Shown here in pieces: positions 7,751 through 64,000 of a DNA stretch of 64,000 bases. Location: contig NZ_CP110535.1 in assembly GCF_026104355.1 (NCBI RefSeq), forward strand, positions 3,844,001 to 3,908,000. Reading direction: 5' to 3'. Under the pieces are notes generated by a model. It was not told the DNA's origin. It did no database searches and saw nothing but the letters and a program-made list of their open reading frames with translations. This DNA comes from Halomonas sp. BDJS001. Its GTDB lineage: Bacteria > Pseudomonadota > Gammaproteobacteria > Pseudomonadales > Halomonadaceae. The stretch's first letter is position 1. The number at the start of each line of letters is the position of its first letter. Both the position numbers and the translations under genes were made by a program.

Positions 7751-7754
7751 AATT

Positions 7755-8297
7755 TCATCCTCTGGTTTCATTACTTAAGCAGGAGCCTGAGTTCTGACTA
7801 AAAGAAAAAGCGCTATCGTTTGATGACATTTTCTCAAGCCTGTAAAACCACCCATCAAAAAAAAACCAAAGCTCATCCCCTACCACTTCAAATACATAAC
7901 CAGGCTCGTTTAACCCAGCCTCATACACATTAAGCGTTGTAATAACATCTCTTCCTTGGCCATAGCCATAAAAGTTACCGTACCTTTCAACCGAACTAGG
8001 AACACTACCTTCAGCATTAAACACAGGATGTTCTTGAACTTCATAAACAGGATCTTCATAGCTAACACCATCCCAAAATAGAAACTTATTATCTTTTATC
8101 TCCACCTGCTTATTTAACTGATTGAAAGCGTCCCCTTTCGTTGTTAACCCGCCTCGGTAACGTTCGATATCTTCTACAGAGTAGATACCATATAGGGCTT
8201 GAACCGATTCGCTTGAGTCCACACTTTCAGCAGCTACAGAAAGAGAGACAACTAAAGCAAACAAAAGCAGCAAACCTGCCTTAATCTTCCTCACCAT
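7755..8297 (-). CDS. exported protein, putative immunity to the PAAR-lysozyme effector
   Basis: 180 residues from the ATG at 8297, which overlaps the effector stop (ATGGTGA) and has GAGGGAG about 9 nt upstream. A longer in-frame start at 8330 would put 11 residues before the signal peptide and is less likely. The N-terminus MVRKIKAGLLLLFALVVSLS followed by VAAES is a signal peptide with a likely type I cleavage site. The mature part is rich in Tyr, Phe and Glu (YGNFYGYGQGRDVITTLNVY, DELWFFFDGWFYRLEK). I recognise no domain. A periplasmic protein translationally coupled to a peptidoglycan hydrolase effector is best explained as its antidote. It ends 4 bp before vgrG. Confidence 0.65.
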   Translation of the reverse strand: MVRKIKAGLLLLFALVVSLSVAAESVDSSESVQALYGIYSVEDIERYRGGLTTKGDAFNQLNKQVEIKDNKFLFWDGVSYEDPVYEVQEHPVFNAEGSVPSSVERYGNFYGYGQGRDVITTLNVYEAGLNEPGYVFEVVGDELWFFFDGWFYRLEKMSSNDSAFSFSQNSGSCLSNETRG

Positions 8298-9175
8298 GTT
8301 TCGTAGACTCCCTCTGAAAACATCTTCCACTCTGCCGCACGTCGATTGATGAGCCCTTGATTAACTTCACCTTGGGATATATTCCATGCCTTCCATGCAT
8401 CCTCAAGAGAGGAGTAAGGCGTTTCCGCATTAGGATCGTTAATTAGTTTAGCGACTGAAGAAGTGCTAAATCCGCTAATACCCGTGTTATAAGCGAGCAT
8501 AACAGCGGCATCAAACTGATGAGGCTCAAGGGGCACGTTAATCACGTTATTGACGGTATCTACGAACGGTGCCAGGTCATCATCAAACAACTGCTCAGCT
8601 TGCTCAGGGGTAATGCCCTCTTGATAAATCGGCCACTCTTGTTTAGTAATAAGGTGCCCGTAGCCAATGGTAGCTCCGGGTACCCACTGGTCAATATCGT
8701 TACCTGTCTGGTCGTCATAAGGCATTAAACGTAGCCGTTCAATCCCCTTTAACCACTCGGTGCCCTCCGTACTTAGCGACATCGAATCAGCAGATGCCAT
8801 CGCTTCGCTTTCAGCCGAATCAGGGGCGGGCAAGTCCACTGCCGATGCCATAAAGGTCATCGCAGTTACTCCACTCGCGCTAGTAATATCTCCCCCTTCT
8901 CCTGACCCAGAGCCAATCACCACGCCGCCGCAATCCACTGCGTGGCCAGTTAATGCAACGGGTTTGCCATCAACAAAAATCGTACTGGAACCTTCAGCGA
9001 TACTGCGTGGATGCGGCGAGCTGCCCGGTCGTGCATGGGGTTCCAGCGGGTCGCCTAACCGCGCCACTGGCTTGTTATCCATCATAACCGTCGGACTACC
9101 GGCCACCACTGGCGAAGGCACGTAGCCGTTATGATCAGTACCTATGTCATCCACGAGTACAAATTTTTGTCCCAT
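8291..9175 (-). CDS. T6SS effector: PAAR domain fused to GH24-type lysozyme
   Basis: 294 residues. The first ~95 form a PAAR domain (DDIGTDHNGYVPSPVVAGSP ... MMDNKPVARLGDP ... STIFVDGKPVALTGHAVDCG), the sharp tip of the spike. After a linker comes a phage-T4-type muramidase domain from about residue 138: GIERLRLMPYDDQ places a glutamate where GH24 lysozymes have their catalytic one, and PGATIGYGH carries the downstream signature. The C-terminal half is helical (EPHQFDAAVMLAYNTGISGF, INRRAAEWKMF). Predicted action is cleavage of peptidoglycan in the periplasm of a competitor. A GGAG site precedes the start. The downstream exported protein is its likely immunity partner. Confidence 0.9.
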   Translation of the reverse strand: MGQKFVLVDDIGTDHNGYVPSPVVAGSPTVMMDNKPVARLGDPLEPHARPGSSPHPRSIAEGSSTIFVDGKPVALTGHAVDCGGVVIGSGSGEGGDITSASGVTAMTFMASAVDLPAPDSAESEAMASADSMSLSTEGTEWLKGIERLRLMPYDDQTGNDIDQWVPGATIGYGHLITKQEWPIYQEGITPEQAEQLFDDDLAPFVDTVNNVINVPLEPHQFDAAVMLAYNTGISGFSTSSVAKLINDPNAETPYSSLEDAWKAWNISQGEVNQGLINRRAAEWKMFSEGVYETW

Positions 9176-9245
9176 TACTCTTTCTCCAATCTTTGCTAAT
9201 GGCAGCTACCGTTCCCCTCATGTTTCTGCATCTGTTGCCTTACCT

Positions 9246-9857
9246 TTACTCATCCCACTTGGCTGGCGCTTCGTAGCTCGCTACCTCAAAAGCATCGACG
9301 TACATACGCTGAAAGCCCGCCGCTTCCAGGCTTTGAATCGCCGTGTGGCAACCCAGTGGTAGCCGCGTCTGTAGCGGTACGCCGCTTAAACTCAGCCGGG
9401 CAGCGGTCAGCAGGCGTGCACCATGGCCACTGCCCTTCCACTCTTGGCTGATAAAGAAGAAGCGCAGTTGCCAGGCGGCTTCGTCATCGGGTCGGCACGC
9501 CAACACCATCCCCAGCGGCGGGCCATCCCCATGGCGCAGGGCGAGTAAACGCCCCTGCCAGTGCTCAACGTGCTCTTGATCGCGCTGCAACCACACCTGG
9601 CGGTGCAGGGTAAATTCCAGTGCGCGGCGAAGCGTATCCAGGTAACCCTTATCACGCAGTACCCAGGGCGAATGCCCTTTTGCATCGGCGCGCTGAACGG
9701 CTTCGATAAAACTATCGAGATCCCCTTCGCGGGCGTTTTCAAGCGTGCGCGAAGCACCTTGGCCACTAGCGGCAGAGCCGCTATCTGCATGGCCACCTGA
9801 GTGGCCATGGGTCGCGATAGGAGTGTGGGAGAGCCATTGCTTAAGTTTCGTTAGCAT
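9246..9857 (-). CDS. GNAT-like acetyltransferase encoded in the T6SS operon
   Basis: 203 residues from the ATG at 9857 (MLTKLKQWLSHTP), which lies inside the last codons of tssM (17-bp overlap). Upstream in-frame starts would overlap tssM much further. After a low-complexity Gly/Ser/His stretch, residues ~60-200 look like a GNAT fold: LRFFFISQEWKGSGHGARLL resembles the acetyl-CoA loop (Q/R-x-x-G-x-G/A pattern) and CHTAIQSLEAAGFQR the usual C-terminal strand and helix. Substrate and role in secretion are unknown. The overlap implies coupled expression, so it may modify a T6SS component or effector. Confidence 0.65.
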   Translation of the reverse strand: MLTKLKQWLSHTPIATHGHSGGHADSGSAASGQGASRTLENAREGDLDSFIEAVQRADAKGHSPWVLRDKGYLDTLRRALEFTLHRQVWLQRDQEHVEHWQGRLLALRHGDGPPLGMVLACRPDDEAAWQLRFFFISQEWKGSGHGARLLTAARLSLSGVPLQTRLPLGCHTAIQSLEAAGFQRMYVDAFEVASYEAPAKWDE

Positions 9858-12800
9858 AGGGCCCTCGTTCTGCGTAAAGTGCCGACGGTAGCTGGAAGCC
9901 TGCGGCGGGCGAACGGGTAAAGGGATTGGGCGTGCTATCGGTAAATAGGCGATAACGCATAGCGCCCCCGTCAACGTTGAAACGAAGCTCTAACTCACGC
10001 TCATTGACGCTGGTGATGTCTGCCTCTTCCAACAGCCGGAACCAGGCCCAGGCGCCATCGCGAGTCATACTCCGCGGCGAGCGGTTTACCTGACTGGGCA
10101 CCATGGTAATGCGGCTATCGGTGCCGCCCCGCAGCGTATTCGGCCAAATCATCGATACCCGGCTGCTGGCACTGTGCGTGTATTCGATGAGTTGGCCATC
10201 GGCACTGATCACACTGCGACGCTTGTCGGGGCTTAAGCTGATCGGCTCTAGCGAGAACTCAACGTCTAGTGCGCCATCAGGGCCAAAGTAGGCTCGGCGA
10301 ATTTGCTCCGCCTGGGACACGGCGGCAAACACACTTTCACGCAGTAACGAATTGCCCTGGGTGTCCACCAACTGCTCAGGCGCACCTTCGATAAAGGGCT
10401 GCAGGTTATCCTGATAGAAGCTGTCGAGTATGCCTTCAGGCGCAAAGAAGGCTTCAAAGTCGCTTAGCGACGCATCTCGGCTGGCACTGGGCACCAGCGG
10501 ATAGCGCCCGGCTAAACGCTCTTGGTAAGGAGCCACCACCTCATCTATCCAAATATTTTCCAGGTGACTGATAGCGCTTGCCATGATGAGCTGCCAGCTT
10601 TGATCTGCCAGGCTTTTCAGCATGCCCGCCACCGGCTCGGGAGAGCTGTCAGCGATACGTTGCAGGCGATAAATGGGATCATCGCCGCGCAGCGATAAGC
10701 GGTCACGCGCGCCTATGAAAGCAGCGCGCCCTGGGTCGCTGGCTTCGTCTATCTCTAGCAGGTAATCACGCAGCTCCGTTACTGCTGACTTAATCTCTTC
10801 CAGCGAGGAGGGATCCCCCTCTTGAGCGTTGGAGAGCTTGTTAATCTCGGTAAACTGCTGTTCGATATCGTGGGCAAGCTGATAACGCGGCGAGTTCTGC
10901 AGCGCTTCGCGGGCTTCCTCGTCATCGTCAGGCAGTTCCGGATAGAGACGGGTATTATGCTCGACCGCCGCTAACAGACGGTCTAGCGGACGCTCGGCAC
11001 TGACCAGTGCATCAGCGACCACCGCCGCCTGGTGAATATCCGGCAAGGGCACCAGCAGCGTATTACGCAAGGCATCGCGCCAGCTCACCCGGTAGTCACT
11101 GACATAGTAGTCACGCAGAGCGTCTTGCAGTTGCTGCCGGTCGGCGTTGCTGAAGTTGATATCTTCGCGCTGATCCAGTACCCACAGGTCGATCAGAGCG
11201 AGTTCGGTTGCTCTATCAAGCTGTTGCAGGAAGTGGTTCTCGAAGCCGCCCCGGGTAACCAGATACGGCAGTTGCACATACGAGGGCTCATCGTTACGCG
11301 CCATAAACACCGTGTTGAACATCGACCCCACCTGACGGCGCAAATCGAGAGGATCTCCGCGACGGCTACTGTCAGCTTTCATGGTGGCGTAGACCCGCTC
11401 ATCCATAGGCACACGTGATAGGTCTTCTATCGCGGCGACTAAGCTGCCGCGCAGTGGTGCCATGGCGTATTCAGCACGTCGATTACCAGCGGCGACCTTG
11501 CTCTCCAAATCGCTGTGCTGCAGGGCGTAATCTAAATGGTCGAGCAGACGATCTTGAATTTCACCACGCTGAGGGAAATCCGACTGCCAACGCTGTGCCA
11601 TAAAGTCGTGTACGCGCTCAGGCTGGCGGCCACCGGCGTCAGACATCATGCGCAAAATTCGCAGCAGCGCCAGCTTGGCGTTACTGCCCTCCTCTTCGCG
11701 GTTCATGTCATCCATGATGCCCACCATCAAGGCTGGCAGGAACTGGTACTCCAGCATGGCTAAGTAGGCATTTTCTACCTGTCCGCCAATCACATGGCCT
11801 TGATAAAGCCCCATATCGGCAAGGAAAGGGGTGTGCGTGCGGTAGCCCTCGAAGGTTTGCATCGCATCACGCAGACGATCCAGCGGCGCCAGCATTTCGT
11901 AGCCCGTTGGGTCGTCGCTCTGAAACTCTTCGGGATGAGTGGCCAGGAAGGTTTCCGCCCGATGTTCGACGGTGGCAAGCGAGGTCGCGTTTTTCTGGTA
12001 GAAATGACTCCATCCACCAATCATTACCGCAGCCACTAACATGCAGCCAACAATGCATGCTTGGCGAATACGCTGTCGGCGATGGGCGACTTTGGCGTTA
12101 TCACCGGCCAGACCAGCTTCCGGATAAATGACTTTTTCAAACAGTTCTTCGGTGAAATACAGCGCGCTGCGCGTCGCCCGGTGCGCCGGCTGTACGCTTT
12201 CAGACATGCCATAACGGCGTGCCGCAGCATCCACGAAAGGATCCTCAGGTACCCCTTGTTGGTAGACCGAGGTGAAATACGTGCCGCGTACAATGGCCGC
12301 GGTGGAAAAACGGTCGCTGGAGAGCGCTTCATTGAGGAAACCTAGCAGCACATCGCGCAGCCCTGCTAGTTGGCGCACAAAGCGGAACACCGATTCCCGC
12401 TCTTCGCGGTCGCGGCACTCTACCAGCATGGTGGGCATCGCACGATTAAGCCGTTCCAACATGCTGTCGTAGGCGGCGGCGAACTCCTCTTCCCACTTTC
12501 CTGGTGTATCAATGGATTTAGCCGAGAAGGTAAAGCCTAGCGGCGCCCGCCGTGCCGCCCGCGAATAATGGCGGAAGAAATCGTCAAAACCGTGCAGCAA
12601 ATCCATTTTGCTGAAGGTGACGTAAACCGGTAAGCGGCTACCGTGGCGCTCCATCAGCTCACGCAGGCGGCTGCGTAATAAGGTGGCGTAAGCCTTACGT
12701 ACGGCGACCTGGGCGTGGCTAAGACGCGCTAAATCAAGCACCAGTACAACACCGTCCAGCGGGCGCCGTGGGCGGTTACGCTCTAGCCACTCAGTGAAGT

Positions 12801-50559: not shown

Positions 50560-50805
50560 GTGAAAAACACTATTCAAAGAATTTTTCTAGAAGTTTTTCA
50601 GCGAGAAGCCAGGGGTAAGACACCTCCAGCTATCAATGACGATTTGATACTTTTAGAATCAGGGCTTGATAGCCTTGGTTTTGCTATCCTTGTTGTAGAG
50701 CTAGAAGACCAACTTGGTTATGACCCATTTTCGATAGCAGATGAAGCTTTCTATCCACAGACCTTTGGCGAGTTCGTAGAATTCTATGAAAAACACAAGC
50801 CTTAA
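50560..50805 (+). CDS. acyl carrier protein
   Basis: 81 residues, GTG start with AAGGAG upstream. The 4'-phosphopantetheine site is ESGLDSLGFAIL (Ser of DSL, about residue 38), in an acidic four-helix carrier as expected. The Gly after DSL-L differs from housekeeping AcpP (ADSLDTVE), so this is a specialised carrier. It overlaps the ligase gene by 20 bp, so the two are likely partners: the ligase would load an acyl group onto this ACP for sugar acylation. Confidence 0.92.
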   Translation: MKNTIQRIFLEVFQREARGKTPPAINDDLILLESGLDSLGFAILVVELEDQLGYDPFSIADEAFYPQTFGEFVEFYEKHKP

Positions 50806-52159
50806 ATCCCATCTTGAGGTTGTGACTGCGGCCAGTCCTGAACGTATTGCGATATATACGCCACATAAAAAAATCAGTTATTTGGATATCTGCGATATCA
50901 CGTGGGATCATAGCGGCAGCGCGGTTGTTGTTTATTGTAAAGACATTGTTGATCAGGCTCGAATGCTGATTGCTTTAGACGGTACAGCATCTTCTATTTG
51001 TCCAATCAGCACACGAATGTCCAAAACGGATATTTCGAGCATTTTAAACCAACATAGCTTTTCACATGTCGTAACTGACCTACCTATTGAAGAGACAGCA
51101 TTATTTACTGAGAAGGGTCTTACAATTGTTAGCACTTCAGAACCGAAGCCAGCAGCAACTGATGAGAAACCAGTAGAGTGGATTAAAACAACGTGGCTTG
51201 TGCCAACATCGGGGACGACTGCATCTCCGAAGTTAGTTCTGCATTCACTGGATACACTCGCTCGAATGGCTCTAAAAACAACTCAGACAGAATCTATGCC
51301 ACACGTCTGGGCACTATTTTACGATGTTACGCGCTTTGCTGGTTACCAAGTTTTCTTTCAAGCATTGCTTGGCGGTCATACCCTAGTCGTGCCTGACCTA
51401 ACAGCGCCGATGAATGAGTGTGTAAAATTTTGCTTACTTACTGGCGTAACTCATATATCTGCTACAGCTACCCTATGGCGAAAAATTTTGATGTGTCCTG
51501 GTAGTGAAAAACTCAATTTGCAGCAGATCACTTTAGGCGGTGAAGCAGCAGATGAGACAATACTAGTCGCACTAAATAAAAGTTTTCCTAGAGCACGTAT
51601 TACTCATGTCTATGCCTCAACAGAAGCAGGTGTAGGGATATCTGTCAGTGACGGTAAGGCTGGCTTTCCTCTTTCATTTTTAGATGACAATGCTGCCGTA
51701 GTGCAGAGTACTATACGTGATGACCACTTATTTTTACGCTCTCGCGGCGCTGGCCAACGTTATGCTGGTGAGCAAAGCTTATCTAACGAGGAGGGCTGGA
51801 TAAACACTGGCGACTTAGTAAGTGTAGAGGGAGACCGTTTTTACATTGTAGGAAGAGCAAGTGGGGTGTTAAATATTGGGGGGGACAAGGTAATACCAGA
51901 GCAAGTGAGGCACGTTCTTCTTGAGCACGAAAACATTTTAGAAGCACATGTATACGGAAAGAAAAACCCCTTCACTGGCACGTTAGTTGTAGCTGATATC
52001 AAACTACGTGATAGCTTGGATGAAAGTGAATCCAGAGTAGACATTGAAAATTTTATAACTGAAAAACTCGCACCATATCAGCGTCCTAAAGTTATTCGAT
52101 TTATTGATGAAATCAAAACAAATTTAACGGGAAAAATGGTACAAAAAAATGAACACTGA
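50786..52159 (+). CDS. AMP-forming acyl-ACP/CoA ligase
   Basis: 457 residues, an ANL-superfamily adenylating enzyme. The P-loop is VPTSGTTASPKLVLHS, followed by THVYASTEAGVGISV (A5-type motif), GWINTGDLVSVEGDRFYIVG (A7) and the C-terminal catalytic lysine in TNLTGKMVQKN (A10). Short for the family, with a reduced N-terminal part. Genetic overlap with an ACP at the 5' end and an SDR at the 3' end (11 bp) suggests that it loads a short acyl group onto the ACP. The substrate is not readable from sequence. Confidence 0.9.
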   Translation: MKNTSLKSHLEVVTAASPERIAIYTPHKKISYLDICDITWDHSGSAVVVYCKDIVDQARMLIALDGTASSICPISTRMSKTDISSILNQHSFSHVVTDLPIEETALFTEKGLTIVSTSEPKPAATDEKPVEWIKTTWLVPTSGTTASPKLVLHSLDTLARMALKTTQTESMPHVWALFYDVTRFAGYQVFFQALLGGHTLVVPDLTAPMNECVKFCLLTGVTHISATATLWRKILMCPGSEKLNLQQITLGGEAADETILVALNKSFPRARITHVYASTEAGVGISVSDGKAGFPLSFLDDNAAVVQSTIRDDHLFLRSRGAGQRYAGEQSLSNEEGWINTGDLVSVEGDRFYIVGRASGVLNIGGDKVIPEQVRHVLLEHENILEAHVYGKKNPFTGTLVVADIKLRDSLDESESRVDIENFITEKLAPYQRPKVIRFIDEIKTNLTGKMVQKNEH

Positions 52160-52877
52160 TCGTCAAGATACAGTAGTCGTTACAGGCGCTGCAAAAGGGC
52201 TTGGTTTAGCTATATCAAAGGAACTGGTTGCAGCCGGCTATAATGTCATTGGAATCGGACGTAACGTTACGCAAGAGTTTAATACGCTGCCTAGTGAACG
52301 CAGCCATTTCATTGAATTTGACCTCACGCAGATCGGAGAAATTCATGGACTGGTAAACGATATTATGGATTTAATAGGCCAAGCCCCATACGGGCTGGTA
52401 AATAATGCTGGAACTGGCCTTGATGGCTTACTTGCCACTCAGCACGCATCTGATATTTCGCGTGTATTAGCGCTCAACTTGGAAGCACCGATCACATTGA
52501 CAAAATATATGGTTCGGCAGATGATGAAAGTAAGACGTGGACGAATTGTTAATATATCATCAATAATTGCGCAGACTGGCTTTAGCGGCTTATCCGTTTA
52601 TGGCGCAACTAAAGCAGGTTTAGAAGGGTTTACACGTTCTTTATCACGAGAAGTGGGCCGTGCAGGCATCACTGTAAATTGTGTAGCGCCTGGTTACATG
52701 ATGACAGATATGACGCAAGGGTTAGCAGGGTCAAAGCTTGAGTCAGTCAAGCGTCGCGCGCCACTTGGTTTGCCAGATCCTTTACATGCGGCTCATGCTG
52801 TTCGATATTTGCTTGAACCCGGCGCGGAAAAAACCACTGGCACAATATTAACAGTCGATGGCGGCAGTACTGCATAA
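52149..52877 (+). CDS. SDR-family reductase, FabG-like
   Basis: 242 residues. Rossmann motif VVTGAAKGLGLAIS, LVNNAGTG and the catalytic Ser-Tyr-Lys set (NISSIIAQTG ... VYGATKAGLEG) are present, and the end (GTILTVDGGSTA) is FabG-like. In this context it most likely reduces a 3-oxoacyl group on the neighbouring ACP to 3-hydroxyacyl before transfer to an amino sugar. Direct action on a sugar is the alternative. Confidence 0.93.
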   Translation: MNTDRQDTVVVTGAAKGLGLAISKELVAAGYNVIGIGRNVTQEFNTLPSERSHFIEFDLTQIGEIHGLVNDIMDLIGQAPYGLVNNAGTGLDGLLATQHASDISRVLALNLEAPITLTKYMVRQMMKVRRGRIVNISSIIAQTGFSGLSVYGATKAGLEGFTRSLSREVGRAGITVNCVAPGYMMTDMTQGLAGSKLESVKRRAPLGLPDPLHAAHAVRYLLEPGAEKTTGTILTVDGGSTA

Positions 52878-52890
52878 TTAGGAGAGAACG

Positions 52891-53604
52891 ATGACTAATG
52901 ATTCTGTAGAAATAATAATTCATGGGTGCGGTGCCATGGCTATCGAGTTGGCTATGTATATAAATGATGTTACACACCATAGCGAGAACAGTGATAAGAA
53001 ACTGATCGTTACTGATATTGTTTCTAGTGAGTTTTCACGAGCGGACGACATTCAAAACGTTCTTGGTTATTCAGTATCTTTTCACAGCAGCATCACAAAT
53101 ATTGATCGCTTTGCAGAAAAAAAATCTATCATTAGCATAGGCACAGCCTTAACAGTCAAGCAAAAAAGATCTGAGATAAAGGCCGCAGGGGGAAAGTTCA
53201 TCACAATAATACACCCTAGTGCAGTAGTTTCATCACTTGCAAATATTGGGCAAGGAGTAATTGTTGCACCATTTGTTTTCATTGGCCCTTTTTCAAATAT
53301 CGGTGATAATGCGATAATAAACGTACATTCTACAATTGGCCACGATGTTTCAATTGGTTCTGGCGCCGTTATTTCCCCACATGTTGATGTCAATGGTGAA
53401 TCTAGCATTGGTGAATATACGTTTCTAGGTGCGGGAGTGGTTGTGGATCCACGCACAAACATTGGACGGTATTGTAAAATATCGTCTGGCACTGTTATTA
53501 AAAAAGACATATCAGACGGAATTTTAGCATTTGACCGAGAGTCACCTAAGAGCGTTAAGATGTTTAGCTCTGAAGATGGTAAGAGCTTGCTCAGTAAGCA
53601 ATAA
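52891..53604 (+). CDS. NeuD/PglD-type sugar acyltransferase
   Basis: 237 residues with an AGGAG site. An N-terminal PglD-like Rossmann-type region (IIIHGCGAMAIELAMYIND) is followed from ~residue 105 by a left-handed beta-helix of hexapeptide repeats (IHPSAVVSSLANIGQGVIVA, INVHSTIGHDVSIGSGAVIS, IGEYTFLGAGVVVDPRTNIG). The His in HSTIGHDV lies where PglD has its catalytic base. These enzymes N-acylate UDP- or dTDP-4-amino-sugars. With an ACP and reductase beside it, an acyl-ACP donor such as 3-hydroxybutyryl is plausible. Confidence 0.85.
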   Translation: MTNDSVEIIIHGCGAMAIELAMYINDVTHHSENSDKKLIVTDIVSSEFSRADDIQNVLGYSVSFHSSITNIDRFAEKKSIISIGTALTVKQKRSEIKAAGGKFITIIHPSAVVSSLANIGQGVIVAPFVFIGPFSNIGDNAIINVHSTIGHDVSIGSGAVISPHVDVNGESSIGEYTFLGAGVVVDPRTNIGRYCKISSGTVIKKDISDGILAFDRESPKSVKMFSSEDGKSLLSKQ

Positions 53605-54222: not shown

Positions 54223-55335
54223 ATGAGCGATAAACCAATTTATGTGACAGAGCCTTACCTTCCACCGCTAGAAGAGTTCATTCCATATTTAGAAAAGATA
54301 TGGAAAAGCAAGCGTCTCACTAATAATGGGCCAATGCACCAACAGCTTGAAGAAGCCCTGTGCGAGTACCTAGGAGTACCTGAAATAGCGCTTTTCAATA
54401 ACGGAACTATAGCGCTCCTAACTGCTTTACAGGCACTGAGAATTACTGGCGAAGTTATTACTACGCCCTTCTCATTCGTAGCAACGGCACATTCCTTGAC
54501 TTGGAACGGCATTACACCTGTTTTTGTTGACATTGATCCTAACACTTTCAACCTTGATCCTAAAAAAATTGAAGCTGCCATTACCTCTCGCACTACAGCG
54601 ATCATGCCCGTTCATTGCTATGGAAATCCGTGTGATGTAAATGCTATTCAGGAAATTGCGGATAAATATAATCTCAAAGTTATTTATGACGCTGCGCATG
54701 CTTTCGGTGTTCAAGACGAAGGAGGCAGTATCTTAAGACATGGTGATTTAAGCGCGATAAGCTTCCATGCTACTAAAGTATTTAACACTTTCGAAGGCGG
54801 CGCTATCATTTGCCCTGATAAAAAAACGAAACAACATATCAATAACTTGAAAAACTTTGGTTTCGTTGACGAAGTTACCGTTGTTGCGCCAGGTATTAAT
54901 GGAAAGATGAGTGAAGTGAATTCAGCATTTGGTTTACTTCAGTTGAAATATATTGACGCAGCTCTTGAAAGTAGAAAGTTAGTAGACAAGCACTACAGGG
55001 ATGCGTTAAGTGAAATAAAAGGTATTAGATTATTGAAGCCCTTAGACCTTGAGAAGCATAATTTTTCTTATTTCCCAATAGTAATAGACAAGGAATATCC
55101 GATAAGCAGAGATAAACTTTACTTTTTATTAAGAGAAAAAAATATTTACGCACGCAGGTATTTTTATCCATTAATTAGCAACACCACCCATTACAATAGC
55201 AGATTTAAAGAAAATCATCTGAAAAATGCGAAGTCAATTTCTGAAAAGGTTATATGTTTACCTATTTTTCCGGAAATAGAGAAGATAGCGCTTTCAGAGA
55301 TTTCATCAGTTATTAGCAATCCAATTAAAAGGTAA
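54223..55335 (+). CDS. DegT/DnrJ/EryC1 nucleotide-sugar aminotransferase, VioA/FdtB type
   Basis: 370 residues, a PLP enzyme. The Schiff-base lysine lies in SFHATKVFNTFEGGA; TTPFSFVATAHSLTWNGITP and the acid pair in VIYDAAHAFG are typical. It resembles transaminases that act on dTDP-4-keto-6-deoxyglucose (for example VioA), giving a 4-amino sugar, but 3-amino enzymes look similar. It is distinct from PseC at 61785-62945. It would supply the amino group acylated by the NeuD-like enzyme. Confidence 0.85.
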   Translation: MSDKPIYVTEPYLPPLEEFIPYLEKIWKSKRLTNNGPMHQQLEEALCEYLGVPEIALFNNGTIALLTALQALRITGEVITTPFSFVATAHSLTWNGITPVFVDIDPNTFNLDPKKIEAAITSRTTAIMPVHCYGNPCDVNAIQEIADKYNLKVIYDAAHAFGVQDEGGSILRHGDLSAISFHATKVFNTFEGGAIICPDKKTKQHINNLKNFGFVDEVTVVAPGINGKMSEVNSAFGLLQLKYIDAALESRKLVDKHYRDALSEIKGIRLLKPLDLEKHNFSYFPIVIDKEYPISRDKLYFLLREKNIYARRYFYPLISNTTHYNSRFKENHLKNAKSISEKVICLPIFPEIEKIALSEISSVISNPIKR

Positions 55336-55514: not shown

Positions 55515-57128
55515 ATGGTTATCATTAAAAAAAGATATTCGCTTTCAAAAAAAATAAAGTTAATAGTGAAAAATAATATTTTTTATCCTATTACTCAGAA
55601 CCAGGTTGACCGCATAGATAAACTGATAAGCTTAGAGCAAAGTCGAGGATACTCAGTTAGCCTATCAAGCTACGATTGGCGAATTTGCCTTATAGAGAAA
55701 CAAATACATCCTAAATTAACCATAACCTTACTTCTTCCTGACTTAGTTATAGAGCCAGAATATAGCATTCCAAAAAATAGCTTTTACACTAAATACAAGC
55801 ATGAGTATTTTTCAAAACATGGGCTTTACGGTAACGACTGCGATTGGTTTTTTTCTTTCAATCCTAGGAGGTACAATCTTGATTTAAAAGCTGTAAAAAA
55901 TGCAGCCATAGTAGAAAAAATAAAAATAACTAAAAGCTGTAAAAAAACGCCAACCAGAACTACTTTTTTGAGTGAAACATCTTTTATTAACTATATAGAC
56001 TATTCTTATAGATCAAGAAACATACACTCTGCAACCTGGAACTATAAATTTAAAAGCCATCTAGTTAGCATGGCCGACTACTTCCAACTTGAATATGTAG
56101 TTAACACGGTACGCGCAAAGGCAATTTTTCGTAGCATAAGTGAAGCTGCAAGCGAGGCTGAAAAAGTACCAAATTTGACACATGGGCAATCAATTGAATA
56201 TTTTTATCATAAATTGCAAGAAATAGATCCACTCCCTGACATTGATAGCTTTAAAACATTGTGGAAAAACTCCGTATTTATAAACAAGCTATCTGGGATT
56301 TATTTTGCTAAAGGTGATATAGAAAATTACATAAACTGTAAAAAAATAGAACTCAATGAATTACTTAAAATTCACTCTAACAAACCAAAGAACATAACGG
56401 AAAGTGTTCTCTTAAGTTCTTTGCACTCTCATATAACTAAAGGAACATCTGTTTTTAGAAATCGAAACATTAATGACCGAAAATTTGAAAATCTTATTTT
56501 TGGCAAAAGCGTAGCTATTGTAGGCTCGGCATCTACCGCTCAACCACAAGGCGCAGAAATTGATAACTTCGATATTGTTTCACGCATGAACTTTCCTGTC
56601 GACAACTCAGAAAACGTACTCTATTTAGGGAAAAGAACCGACGTAATATATAAATCAACATCTATTATCAGAAACGTAGACAACAATCAAAGTTCACAAA
56701 ATAGCGGGATTTTTTATAACTACTTATCTATTATTCCTTTGCTCAATAACGAGAACAATGCGCGAACTATACAGGAATTAGGAAACAACTTACTAACTAT
56801 GCCTCATTCGGCACCAAGAAGTTTAATCGACTTAATAACATTCTCACCAAGAAAAATAAAAGTTTTTAACTGCACTCTATATGCCAATATAAACAAAGCA
56901 TCCACTTATGATGAAAAATATAGAGAAAAAATTTCAAATCTTAATATTAAAAATTTATCTTTCACACAACAAGGAAAACTTATAAGCAATTTTTCGCATG
57001 ATTTCTGTTTAAATTTCTTATTAATGAAGTGCATGTATCTAGGAAATTTATATGAAGCTGATGATAAACTAAAAGAAGTTTTAGAAATGAGTCTTGAAAG
57101 CTACATAAACAACTTAGTCGAAGGGTAA
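55515..57128 (+). CDS. putative GT29 (sialyltransferase-like) glycosyltransferase
   Basis: 537 residues. The N-terminal ~330 residues have no motif I know. From ~residue 330, FGKSVAIVGSASTAQPQGAE, IDNFDIVSRMNFPVD and LGKRTDVIYKST follow the L-sialylmotif of GT29 (VVGNSG-x-GxEIDxxDxVxRMN ... GxxT). Near the C-terminus, NFSHDFCLNFLLMKCMY could correspond to the S-motif region. GT29 enzymes transfer a CMP-nonulosonic acid. The gene ends convergently with the pse operon, which makes such a donor. The family call is by eye and needs a structure-based check. Very AT-rich codon use marks it as acquired. Confidence 0.65.
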   Translation: MVIIKKRYSLSKKIKLIVKNNIFYPITQNQVDRIDKLISLEQSRGYSVSLSSYDWRICLIEKQIHPKLTITLLLPDLVIEPEYSIPKNSFYTKYKHEYFSKHGLYGNDCDWFFSFNPRRYNLDLKAVKNAAIVEKIKITKSCKKTPTRTTFLSETSFINYIDYSYRSRNIHSATWNYKFKSHLVSMADYFQLEYVVNTVRAKAIFRSISEAASEAEKVPNLTHGQSIEYFYHKLQEIDPLPDIDSFKTLWKNSVFINKLSGIYFAKGDIENYINCKKIELNELLKIHSNKPKNITESVLLSSLHSHITKGTSVFRNRNINDRKFENLIFGKSVAIVGSASTAQPQGAEIDNFDIVSRMNFPVDNSENVLYLGKRTDVIYKSTSIIRNVDNNQSSQNSGIFYNYLSIIPLLNNENNARTIQELGNNLLTMPHSAPRSLIDLITFSPRKIKVFNCTLYANINKASTYDEKYREKISNLNIKNLSFTQQGKLISNFSHDFCLNFLLMKCMYLGNLYEADDKLKEVLEMSLESYINNLVEG

Positions 57129-57186
57129 TGCTTTCAAAAAAACTAATTAAAAGTTTATGAATAAAACCTTACTACCTGCATCGAAC

Positions 57187-57229
57187 ACCTCCAAGACTAA
57201 AAGTTTTATAAAATCACTGTCTTGGAGGT
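57187..57229. terminator. long-stem terminator between convergent operons
   Basis: ACCTCCAAGAC (57187-57197) pairs with GTCTTGGAGGT (57219-57229), an 11-bp perfect stem. The 21-nt loop is AT-rich (AAAGTTTTATAAAAT) and may fold further. ATTATTT follows on the plus strand. It sits between the convergent GT29-like gene and pseI and probably ends both transcripts. Confidence 0.75.
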
Positions 57230-57244
57230 ATTATTTACAAATAA

Positions 57245-58276
57245 TTAGCGAACCGGGGTATTCGACTTAACATCCTGAGTTACTTTCTTTCCTAATATCT
57301 CTTTTAACATTTTGGGAGGCAAACCATATCCGGGTCTTACGCTTCTTACGGCATCTTCTGTAATAACATCTCCTGCTTTCAAATCCTTAACGAAATAAAG
57401 TGAGCGACGAAATTGAACATTACCCTGCTCGCTGGCTTTCCTACTATAGTTAACATGGCCGAGGGCTTTCCAGGCGACTTTACTGTTCTTGCATAATGCT
57501 GCCAAATCAGCGGGCTCTAGTGAGAAGCTATCGTCTGGGCCACCTCCGTTACGATCAAGTGTGAAGTGTTTTTCAATAAGAGATGCCCCCATCGCAATGC
57601 TGGCAATAGCGGTTGTGTTATCCAGTGTATGATCAGACAACCCTGTGACCAATCCAAAACGCTTTATCATGTCTGGAATCGTTTTTAAATTGTAATCTTC
57701 GGCAGGAGCAGGATAGCCACTCACACAATGTAAAATGGCTAACTCTTTACATCCACCTTCTCTCGCGGCTGTGATAGCTTCCTCAATTTCCTCTGCATTG
57801 GCCATGCCGGTAGATATAATCATGGGCTTGCCGGTAGCTGCGACATAGCGAATAAGCGCTAAGTCGACCGCTTCGAAGGAGGCAATTTTATAGGCTGGTG
57901 AATTCAGGTCTTCCAGCAGATCTACAGCGGTTGTATCAAAGGGGGAGCTGAAAATTGGAATACCTATCTTTTTAGCGTGTTCGAATAGAGGTTTATGCCA
58001 ATCCCAAGGTGTATGTGCCCAGTCATAAAGCTCATACAAAGTTTTTCCATCCCAGAGGCCGCCTTTAATCTGGAAATCAGGTAGATCGGAGTTCAGCGTG
58101 ATAGTATCCGGTGTGTATGTCTGAATTTTTAGGGCATCAGCACCCGCTTTTTTGGCTTCTTCTATTATACGAAAAGCCGTTTCAATATTGCCATTATGGT
58201 TGGCTGACATTTCGGCTATGATGTAGGTAGGCTGATTAGGACCAATTGTCTTACCGGCTATTACTACATTAGTCAT
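57245..58276 (-). CDS. pseI: pseudaminic acid synthase
   Basis: 343 residues. NeuB-family barrel: YIIAEMSANHNGNIETAFRI near the start, ADALKIQTYTPDTITL, FSSPFDTTAVDLLEDL, HCVSGYPAP and GLSDHT, with ASLIEKHFTLDRNGGGPDDS carrying metal and substrate ligands. A C-terminal SAF domain (RRSLYFVKDLKAGDVITEDA) follows. The YELYDWAHTPWDWHKPLF stretch is of the PseI type, condensing 2,4-diamido-altrose with phosphoenolpyruvate. Last gene of the operon, overlapping its neighbour by 8 bp. Confidence 0.95.
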   Translation of the reverse strand: MTNVVIAGKTIGPNQPTYIIAEMSANHNGNIETAFRIIEEAKKAGADALKIQTYTPDTITLNSDLPDFQIKGGLWDGKTLYELYDWAHTPWDWHKPLFEHAKKIGIPIFSSPFDTTAVDLLEDLNSPAYKIASFEAVDLALIRYVAATGKPMIISTGMANAEEIEEAITAAREGGCKELAILHCVSGYPAPAEDYNLKTIPDMIKRFGLVTGLSDHTLDNTTAIASIAMGASLIEKHFTLDRNGGGPDDSFSLEPADLAALCKNSKVAWKALGHVNYSRKASEQGNVQFRRSLYFVKDLKAGDVITEDAVRSVRPGYGLPPKMLKEILGKKVTQDVKSNTPVR

Positions 58277-58916
58277 TATTCAGCTTCTCCAAAGTAATCT
58301 TGTATTTTTGTCCATGCACCTCGAACCAGGCTGGGTAACGATCCGGGTCACACATCCGTAGTAGATCAAACTGTTCTGATATAGATTTCTCAGGATTTAT
58401 TTGACTATCTTGTGGACCTCGACACCGATAATAGCTAGGCACGGCAATGTCACTCTGAGGTTGTGGATCGATTTGATTTAATTGCTCAATAGCCTCTGTC
58501 ATTAACTCAAGCTCTGCCTCGAAAAGCAAATGATTCGCTTCGTACCAAAGGGCGGTTTTCTCTATCGGGATTTTTCGTTTGCGCCAGATTCGGCCGGTAT
58601 CTACTTGATTTTCAGCTTCCAAGAGGCTTAAGGTAATTTCTCTGGCACCATTCACTAATTCCCAAACATGAGGGCTCCACCCGCGGCCATATGGTAGATC
58701 GCTAGCGTGCAGAACTAGAGTATAGTTGTACCCTCTTCGATGTTGTTGCTTAATAATGTCAGAACAGGAAACTAAAAATAAAAAATCTCCGCCAGTGAGC
58801 TCTGATCGGGAGCGCGCAAGTTCAATCTCATGTACTGCCTTGTGCTGCTGCATCCAACGCTTCAAGTACACGTTAACAGGGTGGCTAGCGTCGCTACATA
58901 AAATGGTGATCTTCAT
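58269..58916 (-). CDS. formyltransferase-like protein of the pse operon
   Basis: 215 residues. VLHASDLPYGRGWSPHVWEL followed by VDTGRIW matches the formyltransferase core (H-x-S-x-LP ... DTG). The Asn that normally sits two residues before the His is Val here, a subfamily feature or a loss. It stands where other pse operons have the PseH N-acetyltransferase, and no PseH is seen. The inference is N-formylation of the 4-amino group of the altrosamine intermediate, giving a 7-N-formyl pseudaminic acid. It overlaps pseG by 4 bp and pseI by 8 bp. Confidence 0.75.
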   Translation of the reverse strand: MKITILCSDASHPVNVYLKRWMQQHKAVHEIELARSRSELTGGDFLFLVSCSDIIKQQHRRGYNYTLVLHASDLPYGRGWSPHVWELVNGAREITLSLLEAENQVDTGRIWRKRKIPIEKTALWYEANHLLFEAELELMTEAIEQLNQIDPQPQSDIAVPSYYRCRGPQDSQINPEKSISEQFDLLRMCDPDRYPAWFEVHGQKYKITLEKLNND

Positions 58917-60016
58917 AAGTTGTCCTCATGACTTAATACGGCAACCACACGCATGCACCCTTGGCCATCGCAGACTTTCTGGGATTTATCTGACATTCTC
59001 ATCAGCATTGTACTTTGGACTTTAAGCTCTTGAATCACCTCTCTGATCCGGGCATCGACGTCCTCCACAGTGGACATTTGAGCACAGCCCGTTTGCTCAA
59101 GCGCAGTTGCAATCAATCGTTGGTTGTTTGCTAGCACAATCATTATTGAAGGCAAGCCCAAGCAACACCGCTCCCAAGAGGTGCTTCCAGCGCCACCAAT
59201 TGAAAAATCAGCAGCACACATACGGTTTGCCATATCACTAACGCTAATACTCACCGCGGTCTGGAAAGAAAGCTTGGAGGCCTGCTTTTTTACAGCTTCA
59301 AGATGCGGAGCAAAATTCCCCATCACGATATCCAACTCAGTCTCTGGAGGTAGACCGCTGTTTGAAAGTGCTTTAAGTACCTTGCCAGTGACATTGGTTC
59401 GGTCACCCCCCCCCATAGAAATCAAGATACGTTTTAGTTTCGGTGAGCGCCTGCGCTTAAGACTGACCGACCTGAGGTCTGTGAATTCAGTACGAAGGAG
59501 CGCATACTTTGGCCCAATCAGTTGCTTGCAAGTCGGAGGAACCAATGTTTCATAATCAGAAGGTTCCCGGCCCAGATTTTGATCCAATAACAACGCACAG
59601 TCATGCTCCCGGTCAGCTAGGTCATCAATCGCCATAATGTGACCAACAGCGTGGACTAATGAGCGCTCCCACTTAGCATCAAGTCCGTAATGATCGACGA
59701 TTAACCAATCTGGGGCGTGTCCCATGAGCACCCTTAGCGTCTGCTCTGCATCAGTTTGCCAGGGAGCTTCTAACCAATCGGAGTGAGCCAAATCTGCTTT
59801 ATCATTGGCAAAAGTGCCCAACTGCTTAGGTGTATGCAGCACATGAAGTTCAAAATCTTTTTGAGTAATTAAGTTCCCCAAGTGGCCTTCGTGATTTCTA
59901 CAAATAAACAAGCACTGATGTCCTTGCCGACGTAATTCGTCAGCGAGGGCAAGGCAGCGCATAACATGGCCGGTGCCAATCTTAATAGATGCATCAACTC
60001 TAAAGAATATTTTCAT
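58913..60016 (-). CDS. pseG: PseG UDP-sugar hydrolase of pseudaminic acid synthesis
   Basis: 367 residues from the ATG at 60016 (MKIFFRVDASIKIGTGHVMR), the family start with a catalytic His in GTGHVMRC; an in-frame ATG at 60031 adds five residues. GT-B fold with ISMGGGDRTNVT and DFSIGGAGSTSWERCCLGLP in the UDP-binding half. It removes UDP from the diamido-altrose before condensation by PseI. No strong ribosome site, in an AT-rich gap after pseF. Confidence 0.94.
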   Translation of the reverse strand: MKIFFRVDASIKIGTGHVMRCLALADELRRQGHQCLFICRNHEGHLGNLITQKDFELHVLHTPKQLGTFANDKADLAHSDWLEAPWQTDAEQTLRVLMGHAPDWLIVDHYGLDAKWERSLVHAVGHIMAIDDLADREHDCALLLDQNLGREPSDYETLVPPTCKQLIGPKYALLRTEFTDLRSVSLKRRRSPKLKRILISMGGGDRTNVTGKVLKALSNSGLPPETELDIVMGNFAPHLEAVKKQASKLSFQTAVSISVSDMANRMCAADFSIGGAGSTSWERCCLGLPSIMIVLANNQRLIATALEQTGCAQMSTVEDVDARIREVIQELKVQSTMLMRMSDKSQKVCDGQGCMRVVAVLSHEDNL

Positions 60017-60051
60017 TGTGTTTAACGACATTTTTTATTTTAAGCATCATA

Positions 60052-60726
60052 TTATAAATCATCATCGGAGAATTTAGATAACAATACATTATAATCAGAG
60101 AGAGTATCTAAATCACAAACTTCTTCCTCTGGAACATCAAAAACAAAAAGATTATTGCTATAGAACGTTTTCTCTATTAAGAAAGAATCTTTTCTACCCC
60201 AATAAAACGTTCCATTGCTTACCCGAAATTTAGGCTGAAATTGAGATTGAACCCCCAGATAGTGAGGCAGTAGCAACTCAGCGCTTGCATTACTATCAAC
60301 TTTCAGGGCTTGTGCCGGCGAATAGTTATAAGATGAAACTCCCATAACAACATTAGCATTACGACTAGTTTCAAAAAGCTCAAAAGAACTCCTTAGTGTT
60401 CCAGGCTTTAATAATGCCGCTGTAGCATAAACACAACAAAATAAATCATAGTTGCCATTTAATAAAACATCTTCACATACTTCAGCTACTGTAGATCTGT
60501 CTTCTGCTAAAGAATGGCTCCTATTATAAACAAAAGCATCTGCAGCTTTAGCAATTTCAGCTATTTCATCATCTTCGGTTGAAACAATTATTTTTGAAAA
60601 AAGTTTGCTAGCTTGACAACAATCTATTACTCGTCCGAGCAATGGTTTACCGCCCAGAGGTAATACATTTTTCCGAGGAAGGCGCTTTGACCCTCCTCTT
60701 GCAGGTATAATCGCGACAGGTTTCAT
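60052..60726 (-). CDS. pseF: pseudaminic acid cytidylyltransferase
   Basis: 224 residues. The CMP-sugar synthetase start KPVAIIPARGGSKRLPRKNV and SEDDEIAEIA-type region (VSTEDDEIAEIAKAADA) are clear. PseF activates the nonulosonic acid to its CMP form, the donor for glycosyltransferases such as the GT29-like protein. Its ATG overlaps the stop of the frameshifted synthase (ATGA). Confidence 0.95.
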   Translation of the reverse strand: MKPVAIIPARGGSKRLPRKNVLPLGGKPLLGRVIDCCQASKLFSKIIVSTEDDEIAEIAKAADAFVYNRSHSLAEDRSTVAEVCEDVLLNGNYDLFCCVYATAALLKPGTLRSSFELFETSRNANVVMGVSSYNYSPAQALKVDSNASAELLLPHYLGVQSQFQPKFRVSNGTFYWGRKDSFLIEKTFYSNNLFVFDVPEEEVCDLDTLSDYNVLLSKFSDDDL

Positions 60727-61792
60727 GACAGATCTTTAACTGATAAAACATGCCCTTTGGGCAATGCTTTATTAAAGTACATATTAGTCATATTTTCATA
60801 CTGATCAGGTGCAATACCGTATCCAGGTCTCTTGAACTTTATTTTTGCTGAGGATAATTTTTGCCCTTCAGATACTGCTTCATCTAAAATTGCACTTCTT
60901 CTAATATTTAAACGGTTTGCTTTCTCTTGGTCAGTCATAATTCTGCGGGGTTCCCCCATTGCTTGCTCGACGTCTCGTATAGTGTTTACAAATTTTTTCA
61001 TTTCGTGTGGTTCGATAGACATTACATGCTCTACGCTTCGAGTCGTTTTGTCTTCTGTTATCGTTTTTTCTACCAAATTTGCCCAAGCGCTACTGCTGCG
61101 ACATCCATTATTTCACCAGGGGAATGGTCTGAATAGGCAACTGGGCATTTGAAAATTTTCTTTATATTTGGAAGCATATTGAGATTTATGCTATCAAGAT
61201 GTGCGGGGTAGCCAGAAGGGCAATTATGAATGATGATTTTATCGTTGCCCTCACTACGAATTACATCTACCGCTTGTTCGATTTCACCAAAAGTGGCATT
61301 ACCAGTATCTAACTGAAGGGACACTCCCAAATTAGCAATTTTTCTAAGCCAAGGAAGGTAGTTAACGTCTGCTGATGCTATCTTAACAGAATGGCAGCCA
61401 AGCGACTTTACCAACTCAAACCCCGCTTCATCTCCGATAGTTGCAAAAAAAGTAAGGCCCAGCTCATCTGCATACGTCTTAAGCTCTCTCCATGAACTTT
61501 CAGGCATGCTGCGCCTTCTAAAAATTTCATACAACGATTCAGATACCGTTTCAGTTTTGCCTGTCTGCTTATCAATTAATACATCGTAGCTGTACATCAA
61601 TCCTTTATCAGCCACAAGTTCGTCCGGATCAAAAATCTGAAACTTGACTGCGTCACCACCAGCTTCTGCAGCATGTCTAACCAGAAGTTTTGCACTTTCT
61701 AAGCCATTGTGTGTCGGGCCAGCTTCAAAAGTGATAAATGTTTTTTCGCCATCACCTACATATTTATCACCTATCTTTACGATATTAGTCAT
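60723..61792 (-). pseudogene. second NeuB-family nonulosonate synthase, frameshifted
   Basis: Two frames make one 356-residue NeuB-family protein if one G is added to the GGG near 61082-61085. The 5' part runs TFITFEAGPTHNGLESAKLL ... VKFQIFDPDELV ... HNCPSGYPAHLDSINLNMLP ... VAYSDHSPGEIMDVAAVALG; after the break LVEKTITEDKTTRSVEHVMS and a C-terminal SAF-like domain (LSSAKIKFKRPGYGIAPDQY) follow. Both halves look well conserved, so the break is recent or a base error. It is distinct from PseI in this operon, and its ATGA coupling to pseF and 8-bp overlap with pseC are kept. Confidence 0.85.
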
Positions 61793-62945
61793 CTAATAAT
61801 CCTTTAAGAATATTCGAAATCTTAATTGGTTCAGAAGTAGCCATATTTGGAAACATCGGAAGACTGATGGCTTCGCGGTAATACTGCATTGCTTGGGGGT
61901 AAGCGTATGGTTTAAACCCCATTTTCTGATAATAAGGCTGAGTATGAACGGGGATATAATGCAGGTTCACGCCTATTCCTTGTTCTCTCAGAGAGTCAAA
62001 AACTTGACGGTGTGTTTTGCGTATTGCACCTAGCTTCAGACGAATCACATATAAGTGCAGACCGGAATAACTATCTGGGTGCTGCCATGGCGTTGTTATA
62101 GGTAGGCCTTCTAAGAGTGCATTGTAGCATTTGGCCAGCTCATGGCGGCGACCGACATACGCATCTAATCGATCCATCTGGCTGATGCCAAGAGCAGCTT
62201 GTAACTCCGTCATACGATAGTTATAGCCTAGCTCCAACTGCTGGTAATACCAGGGGCCATCCGGCTCATGCGTCATTAGGTTCTGATCTCGGGTAATCCC
62301 GTGGCTTCGCATTAGGTTCATGCGGCTAGCCAGTTCGTCATCATTGGTCAGCGCCATACCGCCTTCAGCGGTGGTGACAATCTTTACCGGATGGAAACTG
62401 AAGACGGTAATGTCACTGTAGCGTCCACTGCCGATGTATTCGTCTTTATACTTGCCACCAATGGCGTGGGAAGCATCTTCAATGATGCTGAAACCAAAGC
62501 GTTGACTCAAGTCATAGATAGCTTCCATATCGCAGGGCTGTCCACACAAATGAACGGCCACCAATACTTTCGGTAGGCGGTTATACTGCTCGGCTTCTTG
62601 CAGCTTGAATTCAAGAGCCTTCGGACATAGATTGTAGGTTCTTGGGTCGATATCCACGAAATCGACCCAGGCACCGCAATACAATCCACAATTGGCAGAA
62701 GCCACGAAGGTAATCGGCGTCGTCCACAGCCAATCACCCGATCCCAACCCCAGCGCTTTGCAGGCGATGTGTAGGGCTGAAGTTGCGCTGTTTACAGCAA
62801 GCGCGTGTTTGGCATTCACATGCGCTGCTACTTTCTGCTCAAAAGCAGGCACTTTTGGGCCTTGTGTTAGGAAGTCTGAGGTCAATACATCAACTACAGC
62901 ATCAATATCAGATTGTGTGATATCCTGTCTGCCATATGGAATCAT
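61785..62945 (-). CDS. pseC: PseC aminotransferase
   Basis: 386 residues, PLP-dependent. YGRQDITQSDIDAVVDVLTS at the start and DFLTQGPKVPAFEQKVA are PseC signatures; the PLP lysine is in FSFHPVKIVTTAEGG, and LGYNYRMTELQAALG is conserved. It makes UDP-4-amino-4,6-dideoxy-N-acetyl-beta-L-altrosamine from the PseB product. It lies 2 bp after pseB and overlaps the next gene by 8 bp. Confidence 0.96.
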   Translation of the reverse strand: MIPYGRQDITQSDIDAVVDVLTSDFLTQGPKVPAFEQKVAAHVNAKHALAVNSATSALHIACKALGLGSGDWLWTTPITFVASANCGLYCGAWVDFVDIDPRTYNLCPKALEFKLQEAEQYNRLPKVLVAVHLCGQPCDMEAIYDLSQRFGFSIIEDASHAIGGKYKDEYIGSGRYSDITVFSFHPVKIVTTAEGGMALTNDDELASRMNLMRSHGITRDQNLMTHEPDGPWYYQQLELGYNYRMTELQAALGISQMDRLDAYVGRRHELAKCYNALLEGLPITTPWQHPDSYSGLHLYVIRLKLGAIRKTHRQVFDSLREQGIGVNLHYIPVHTQPYYQKMGFKPYAYPQAMQYYREAISLPMFPNMATSEPIKISNILKGLLDD

Positions 62946-62947
62946 AA

Positions 62948-63946
62948 TTAAATCTTGCCAATTTCGTTATAGTGATTATCAATCCAGTTTTTTAGCTCGT
63001 TGTCGGTCATCCATTCAGTGTTGTTATCGCTTGAGTACACAAAACCTTCGGGCACCTTTTTGCCATCTTTGATACGTTCTATAGAGTTTCCCCAGTTATT
63101 GATACTCGGCAATATCTTAAAGTGTTCCGTATACTCGTAGGTAAAGTGAGAATCTTCTGAACCAATCATTTGTTCATGTAGTTTTTCACCAGGACGAATA
63201 CCAACTATTTCTTGCTTGGCCTCAGGTGCAATAACGCGCGCCAAGTCTGTGACTCTCATCGAAGGAATTTTCTTTACATAAATCTCGCCACCAACCATGT
63301 CTTCAAAAGCATGCCAAACAAGTTTTACGCCCTGCTCCAGACTAATCATAAAGCGAGTCATGCGTAGATCAGTAATAGGTAGTACACCCTTGTCTTTGAT
63401 AGACATAAAAAACGGTATTACGGAACCACGTGACCCCATTACGTTGCCATACCGAACCACGGAAAATTTGGTTTCATGGCCACCAGCGTAGGAGTTACCC
63501 GCTACAAAAATTTTGTCAGATGCTAGCTTTGTAGCGCCATACAAATTTATGGGGCTGCTGGCTTTATCGGTGGACAGCGCAACTACCCCTTTAACCCCCT
63601 TGTCGATACATGCATCGATCACGTTCATGGCACCATTGATATTGGTCTTGATGCACTCAAAGGGATTATACTCAGCGGTGGGTACAATTTTTGTGGCGGC
63701 CGCATGTACTACATAATCCACGCCATCCAGTGCGCGATACATGCGCTCCCTATCACGCACATCGCCGATAAAAAATCTTAGCCGATCATCGTTTTGAAAC
63801 AGTTTGGCCATCTCCCACTGTTTCATCTCATCACGGGAGAAAATAATAACCCGACGTGGATTGAAGCGTGCAAGTAACATAGGCACAAAAGTATGGCCAA
63901 ATGAGCCGGTTCCACCGGTAATCAAAATTGATTTATCGTTAAACAT
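62948..63946 (-). CDS. pseB: UDP-GlcNAc 4,6-dehydratase (inverting)
   Basis: 332 residues from the ATG at 63946, with AAAGG upstream. A longer frame to 63985 lacks a site. MFNDKSILITGGTGSFGHTF has the Rossmann motif, VIIFSRDEMKQWEMAKLF is the PseB/FlaA1 signature, and the catalytic region has STDKASSPINLYGATK with Lys in place of the usual Tyr of the YxxxK start. It starts pseudaminic acid synthesis by 4,6-dehydration and C5 inversion. First gene of the operon in this window. Confidence 0.96.
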   Translation of the reverse strand: MFNDKSILITGGTGSFGHTFVPMLLARFNPRRVIIFSRDEMKQWEMAKLFQNDDRLRFFIGDVRDRERMYRALDGVDYVVHAAATKIVPTAEYNPFECIKTNINGAMNVIDACIDKGVKGVVALSTDKASSPINLYGATKLASDKIFVAGNSYAGGHETKFSVVRYGNVMGSRGSVIPFFMSIKDKGVLPITDLRMTRFMISLEQGVKLVWHAFEDMVGGEIYVKKIPSMRVTDLARVIAPEAKQEIVGIRPGEKLHEQMIGSEDSHFTYEYTEHFKILPSINNWGNSIERIKDGKKVPEGFVYSSDNNTEWMTDNELKNWIDNHYNEIGKI

Positions 63947-64000
63947 ATGCACCTTTCTCAAATGCGTAGAAAACCATGGAACCACTTTCTATCAGATCTG
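63947..64000. other. pseB upstream sequence at window edge
   Basis: Only 54 bp remain beyond the pseB start, enough for the ribosome site (AAAGGTGCAT) but too short to judge whether the operon starts here or continues outside. Confidence 0.5.

Follow-up and report, generated by a model that had tools for sequence, protein, structure and literature searches.

The window analysed here, a 64,000-nucleotide stretch of the Halomonas sp. BDJS001 genome, encodes a 537-aa protein whose last ~215 residues (about 320-537) are identified by a good chain of evidence as a divergent GT29-type domain. The reading that best fits the surrounding genes, to which we give an even chance, is a GT29-type CMP-nonulosonate transferase that uses a CMP-pseudaminic-acid derivative to modify flagellin or a flagellin glycan, in a flagellar glycosylation island. 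The gene (55515..57128, plus strand) is an unbroken ATG-to-stop frame, exactly where a preliminary description of this DNA had placed it. A search of the 4.97-Mb genome found it to be the sole strong copy, and over its whole length its product aligns with L055 (genome G978, 44% identity) and L056 (genome G930, 37%), proteins from two other genomes in the same family; together these observations indicate a real gene. The G+C content is 31-33% over 55-57 kb of the window, compared with 50-54% at 44-47 kb, and this low value suggests that the transferase island was acquired. A plasmid or phage source for the gene was rejected, as tblastn returned no match to either. Viral contigs from IMG/VR (L024-L038) carry canonical GT29-like genes, some with an extra N-terminal domain of ~300 aa fused to them.

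The assignment of the C-terminal domain rests on comparisons of several kinds. The Pfam family PF00777 aligned with residues 335-406 at 16 bits (E 0.008), rising to 17.9 bits for the isolated domain, so that the protein stays at 16.0-17.9 bits against a curated cut-off of 23. Since a single sub-threshold match is insufficient alone, relatives were gathered by whole-genome and collection searches. PF00777 was the sole Pfam family to recur among them, in 8 of the 12 A3 members (E down to 1e-7) and 9 of the 15 A5 members; the relative L004 clears the cut-off (23.9 bits), and the canonical relative L017 reaches 32 bits. A profile built from the clade only, with phage and canonical members left out, was run against 177,635 PDB sequences and gave the first five places to GT29 enzymes (ST6Gal1, E 6e-4; ST8Sia3, E 3e-3), and a profile from the three closest proteins again ranked them first (E ~0.1); phmmer with the lone window protein found no PDB match. 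Aligned by hhalign with the canonical bacterial and phage GT29 set, in which PF00777 is found in all nine members and PDB GT29 enzymes are matched at E 3e-7, the family scored 99.4% (E 5e-21) over 193 columns, spanning the whole domain. The AlphaFold2 model of the domain (mean pLDDT 68, pTM 0.69) drew on more distant rows, with the two closest homologues, L055 and L056, left out. ST8SiaIII accounted for its top four Foldseek matches (probability 0.89-0.99), the best at 0.98-0.99 with a TM-score of ~0.42 for this medium-confidence model, and the predicted domain has the GT29/GT42-type fold, a variant of GT-A. Beyond the core, the full-length model (mean pLDDT 52) was too weak to use. The profile and structure searches that the preliminary description had proposed thus both lead to GT29, and its description of the protein as GT29-like holds for the type of domain. 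Strict membership of the family is not claimed, because the protein scores below the Pfam cut-off and has Asn at the Glu position of its VS-like motif. The statement that GT29 is known chiefly from animals is outdated, since a 2018 paper had already described 23 GT29 sequences from bacteria, without assigning them a function (PMC5811610). Given these published sequences, the window protein is a new variant and not the first bacterial GT29.

The expected sialylmotifs are present in part. A sialylmotif-L-like stretch, correctly located at about residues 330-385 in the preliminary description, covers residues 332-379 (56508..56651, plus strand; SVAIVGSAS..GAEIDNFDIVSRMN..LGKRTDVIY), where it aligns with the L motifs of ST6Gal1 and ST8Sia3 and lies largely within the PF00777 alignment. 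Alignments A5 and A7 place a motif-S-like stretch at residues 429-452 (56799..56870, plus strand; MPHSAPRSLIDLITFSPRKIKVFN), in which the canonical P-S/T-x-G is altered and the SG replaced (PHSAPR). Tyr469 (56919..56921, plus strand), more than 90% conserved, is a candidate motif III residue. The VS-like motif, HDFCLN (56997..57014, plus strand), holds the candidate catalytic base His495, which is invariant in the alignments and followed by Asp, so that the VS-type HD pair is kept. The remainder of the motif reads H-x4-N in place of H-x4-E; other clade members have Gln, Ser or His at this position, and canonical GT29 members from phages also vary there. The replaced VS Glu and the lost motif-S SG, which count against the transferase reading, together with the low G+C of the island (31-33%), could point to a GT29-like protein that is regulatory or has lost its catalytic activity, an explanation that we regard as very improbable given the invariant His495, the intact frame and full-length homologues conserved at 37-44%. 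Compared with the GT29 enzymes of CAZy (ST6Gal1, ST3Gal1, ST8Sia3 and the bacterial members), the window protein has in common the L-motif Rossmann half, the motif-S position, the VS-type HD pair and the predicted fold. It differs in belonging to a separate deep clade, in lacking the motif cysteines, in a large extra N-terminal region, in the VS Glu to Asn change and altered PST-G motif, and in falling below the Pfam cut-off when taken alone.

In a tree of 26 domains, 16 bacterial rows, including the window protein, form one clade (support 100/99), from which the viral-contig proteins and one protein of Pseudomonas flexibilis are excluded; the finer placements are unsure owing to long branches. 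The N-terminal region (residues 1-313; 55515..56453, plus strand) is specific to the subfamily and possibly an acceptor-recognition module. As the preliminary description had found it unplaceable, so residues 1-330 gave no match in Pfam, NCBIfam or the PDB. No similarity was detected by hhalign between the N-terminal regions of different clade subfamilies. A profile that included the relatives' N-termini matched designed TPR proteins in the PDB; homology of the window N-terminus to these TPR-like regions was rejected, as hhalign found none. Such dissimilar N-termini on a shared core would be consistent with one catalytic core combined with exchangeable acceptor modules. A broader and more tentative proposal, which we consider rather unlikely as it stands, is that flagellin nonulosonate transferases would comprise, in addition to Maf and FlmG, a third class formed by this bacterium-specific, divergent GT29 clade, with a CMP-ulosonate-binding core, unrelated and exchangeable N-terminal acceptor modules, and CMP-sugars supplied by several types of synthase.

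The gene meets a pse operon head-on, as the preliminary description had stated; the two are convergent, with their 3' ends ~116 bp apart, and a 14-nt inverted repeat (57184..57232) between them is a possible shared terminator. The neighbouring CMP-nonulosonate pathway is also confirmed, by curated matches to PseI, PseG and PseC. On the minus strand lie pseI, for pseudaminic acid synthase (57245..58276; TIGR03586, 510.7 bits, cut-off 340); a formyltransferase in the pseH slot (58269..58916; PF00551, 28.9 bits, above cut-off); pseG, for the UDP-sugar hydrolase (58913..60031; TIGR03590, 319 bits, cut-off 153.6); a divergent pseF-like CMP-sugar synthetase (60052..60726; TIGR03584, 179.8 bits, below the 205.7 cut-off); a second NeuB-like synthase gene (60723..61792); the pseC aminotransferase (61785..62945; TIGR03588, 549.9 bits); and a pseB-type dehydratase (62948..63985; PF02719, 319 bits). 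The NeuB-like gene is split into two frames of 240 aa and 117 aa, and an intact 356-aa relative, 93% identical over the first part, occurs in L065 of the same genus. The slot between pseG and pseI is occupied in six family-mates by a curated PseH acetyltransferase, which suggests that formylation probably replaces acetylation in the window operon and that its product is probably 7-formamido pseudaminic acid. Past the operon, just outside the window, are genes for a 1168-aa GT4/GT2 glycosyltransferase, two flagellins and two FliDs. In L018, the two flagellin genes downstream of the pse operon (7732-8595 and 8850-9713) are of equal length with the same Pfam scores, and the FliD genes are in tandem (9889-11238 and 11413-12768).

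In the preferred reading, the C-terminal domain would act as an inverting GT29-type glycosyltransferase, its L-motif Rossmann half binding a CMP-activated nonulosonic acid and His495 serving as the putative catalytic base; the linkage formed is one that we infer. The donor would most likely be a CMP-pseudaminic-acid derivative from the facing operon, probably in the 7-formamido form, as the PseH slot is filled by a formyltransferase. The acceptor would most likely be flagellin or a viosamine-containing flagellin glycan, since the island holds the multi-domain 1168-aa glycosyltransferase, the flagellins and the FliDs, and the N-terminal ~310 residues would probably recognise it.

Against this reading, the transferase gene is not co-directional with the pse genes and closes a viosamine-type operon. 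Directly upstream is a VioA/DesI-like sugar aminotransferase (54223..55335, plus strand; PF01041, best NCBIfam TIGR04427 below cut-off), preceded by an acyl-amino-sugar set (50560..53604, plus strand) of an acyl carrier protein (putative, called by size and sequence), an AMP-binding ligase, an SDR/KR reductase and a NeuD/VioB-type hexapeptide transferase. This set and the aminotransferase resemble, by analogy, the viosamine island of P. syringae, which contains vioA, vioB, vioR and acp and is known to modify flagellin (PMC3927599). The main rival explanation is therefore a VioT role, in which the protein would use a dTDP donor to transfer an acylated 4-amino-4,6-dideoxyhexose (modified viosamine) from the co-directional operon, with the pse adjacency incidental. 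It is favoured further by aminotransferases 64-75% identical that adjoin a GT29-like gene in L010-L012 and L054-L056, usually with an ATP-grasp gene, including the pse-less loci L010 and L011. We nevertheless judge a VioT role unlikely. GT29-type enzymes of known activity use CMP-ketosugar donors, and L003, L013, L014, L015 and L023 have CMP-sugar genes with no close relative of the aminotransferase nearby. In addition, VioT of Pseudomonas syringae, although likewise encoded next to vioA/vioB/vioR/acp-type genes in a flagellar context, is a different protein of 1173 aa (PMC3927599), a size matched by the neighbouring 1168-aa glycosyltransferase. Between aminotransferase and transferase, the G978 and G930 cassettes have extra ATP-grasp and epimerase genes that are absent from the window, and G978 has a WbqC-like gene, of which the window has none there. 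ATP-grasp proteins repeatedly accompany the GT29-like gene and the VioA-like aminotransferase, in L010 (9705-10979), L054 (10954-12213) and L055 (7480-8721).

Wider neighbourhoods bear on the proposed CMP-nonulosonate donor. Of the 16 clade loci, 13 have a CMP-sugar synthetase or NeuB-type (NulO-synthase) gene no more than ~9 kb away, an association spanning Pseudomonadota, Chlorobiota and Bacillota. In L055, of the same genus, the head-on arrangement is repeated, with PseI 85% and the formyltransferase 83% identical. Three loci count against the preferred reading: L056 has no NulO gene nearby, its PseI being ~190 kb off on the same contig, and no NulO gene was present in the locus DNA examined for L009 and L052. 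Curated PseI was found in 5 of the 7 family genomes with a strong GT29-like match and in 44 of the 268 others (p 0.002 in a one-sided Fisher test that takes no account of phylogeny). Conversely, both Maf and a strong GT29-like match are absent from 38 of the 49 PseI-positive family genomes, so the GT29-like enzyme is not generally required for Pse transfer. In some relatives with neither Maf nor GT29-like genes, other candidates follow pseI: a PF07388 polysialyltransferase-like protein in L061 and, just under the cut-off, a PF05159 Capsule_synth-type protein in L065, which suggests that this operon position is open to different ulosonate transferases. GT29-like genes in several genera (L013, 10408-12024; L017, 5864-7486; L022, 14035-15741; L023, 9145-10761) adjoin genes for an HMGL-like (PF00682) enzyme of ~540 aa and a CMP-sugar synthetase, and the CMP-synthetase-like proteins of L010 and L053 are of a fusion type of ~447 aa, one half of the L010 protein being an RraA-like aldolase; such loci may encode pathways to undescribed CMP-ulosonic acids.

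The nature of the acceptor is a separate question. A CMP-nonulosonate transferase acting on LPS, capsule or another surface glycan instead of flagellin is a further explanation, slightly less probable than the VioT role. Several relatives occur in surface-polysaccharide loci (for example in G037, near ManC-type genes and one for an initiating sugar transferase, and in L010, near Glyphos_transf and GT2 genes), no flagellin was found near distant relatives of the transferase, which also weighs against the preferred reading, and bacterial GT29 was tied to LPS by its discoverers (PMC5811610). However, the nearest acceptor genes here are the flagellins and FliDs beyond the pse operon and the large glycosyltransferase, and the N-terminal region is subfamily-specific, both of which argue against this explanation.

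The flagellin NulO transferases on record are of the Maf and Flm types (PMC11339370, PMC7591256). Maf proteins (PF01973) have the role predicted here, the transfer of NulO within a flagellin island, and are similar in their central domain to CstII, a GT42 enzyme (PMC11339370). Maf identity was rejected for the window protein, as PF01973 had no match in the protein or its genome and hhalign against one Maf was blank. The suggestion of a pseudaminic acid transferase distinct from Maf therefore stands for the distinction, the genome having no Maf; the Pse donor is less secure, given the co-directional viosamine-type aminotransferase and the diverse CMP-sugar genes beside the clade. FlmG of Caulobacter, a flagellin Pse transferase, has the two-part layout predicted here (N-terminal recognition, C-terminal catalysis) and a CMP-Pse pathway. 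In FlmG a TPR N-terminus is joined to a GT-B catalytic half (PMC7591256), whereas the window protein has a GT29-like half and an unplaced N-terminus, a TPR-like signal arising only from the relatives' N-termini. The CMP-sugar attachment proposed for the window transferase is performed elsewhere by unrelated enzymes. Maf was detected in 7 of the 275 genomes of the family, and most of its Pse-making genomes are Maf-free; the clade offers a candidate Pse transferase. If true, this would extend the animal sialyltransferase fold to probable bacterial flagellin or surface-glycan modification, and the clade is relevant to the proposal that GT29 arose in bacteria. Elsewhere in the window, positions 1-31000 hold, judging from sequence alone, a type VI secretion cluster (VgrG, TssB/C, ClpV-like, IcmF-like) with PAAR-type candidate effectors.
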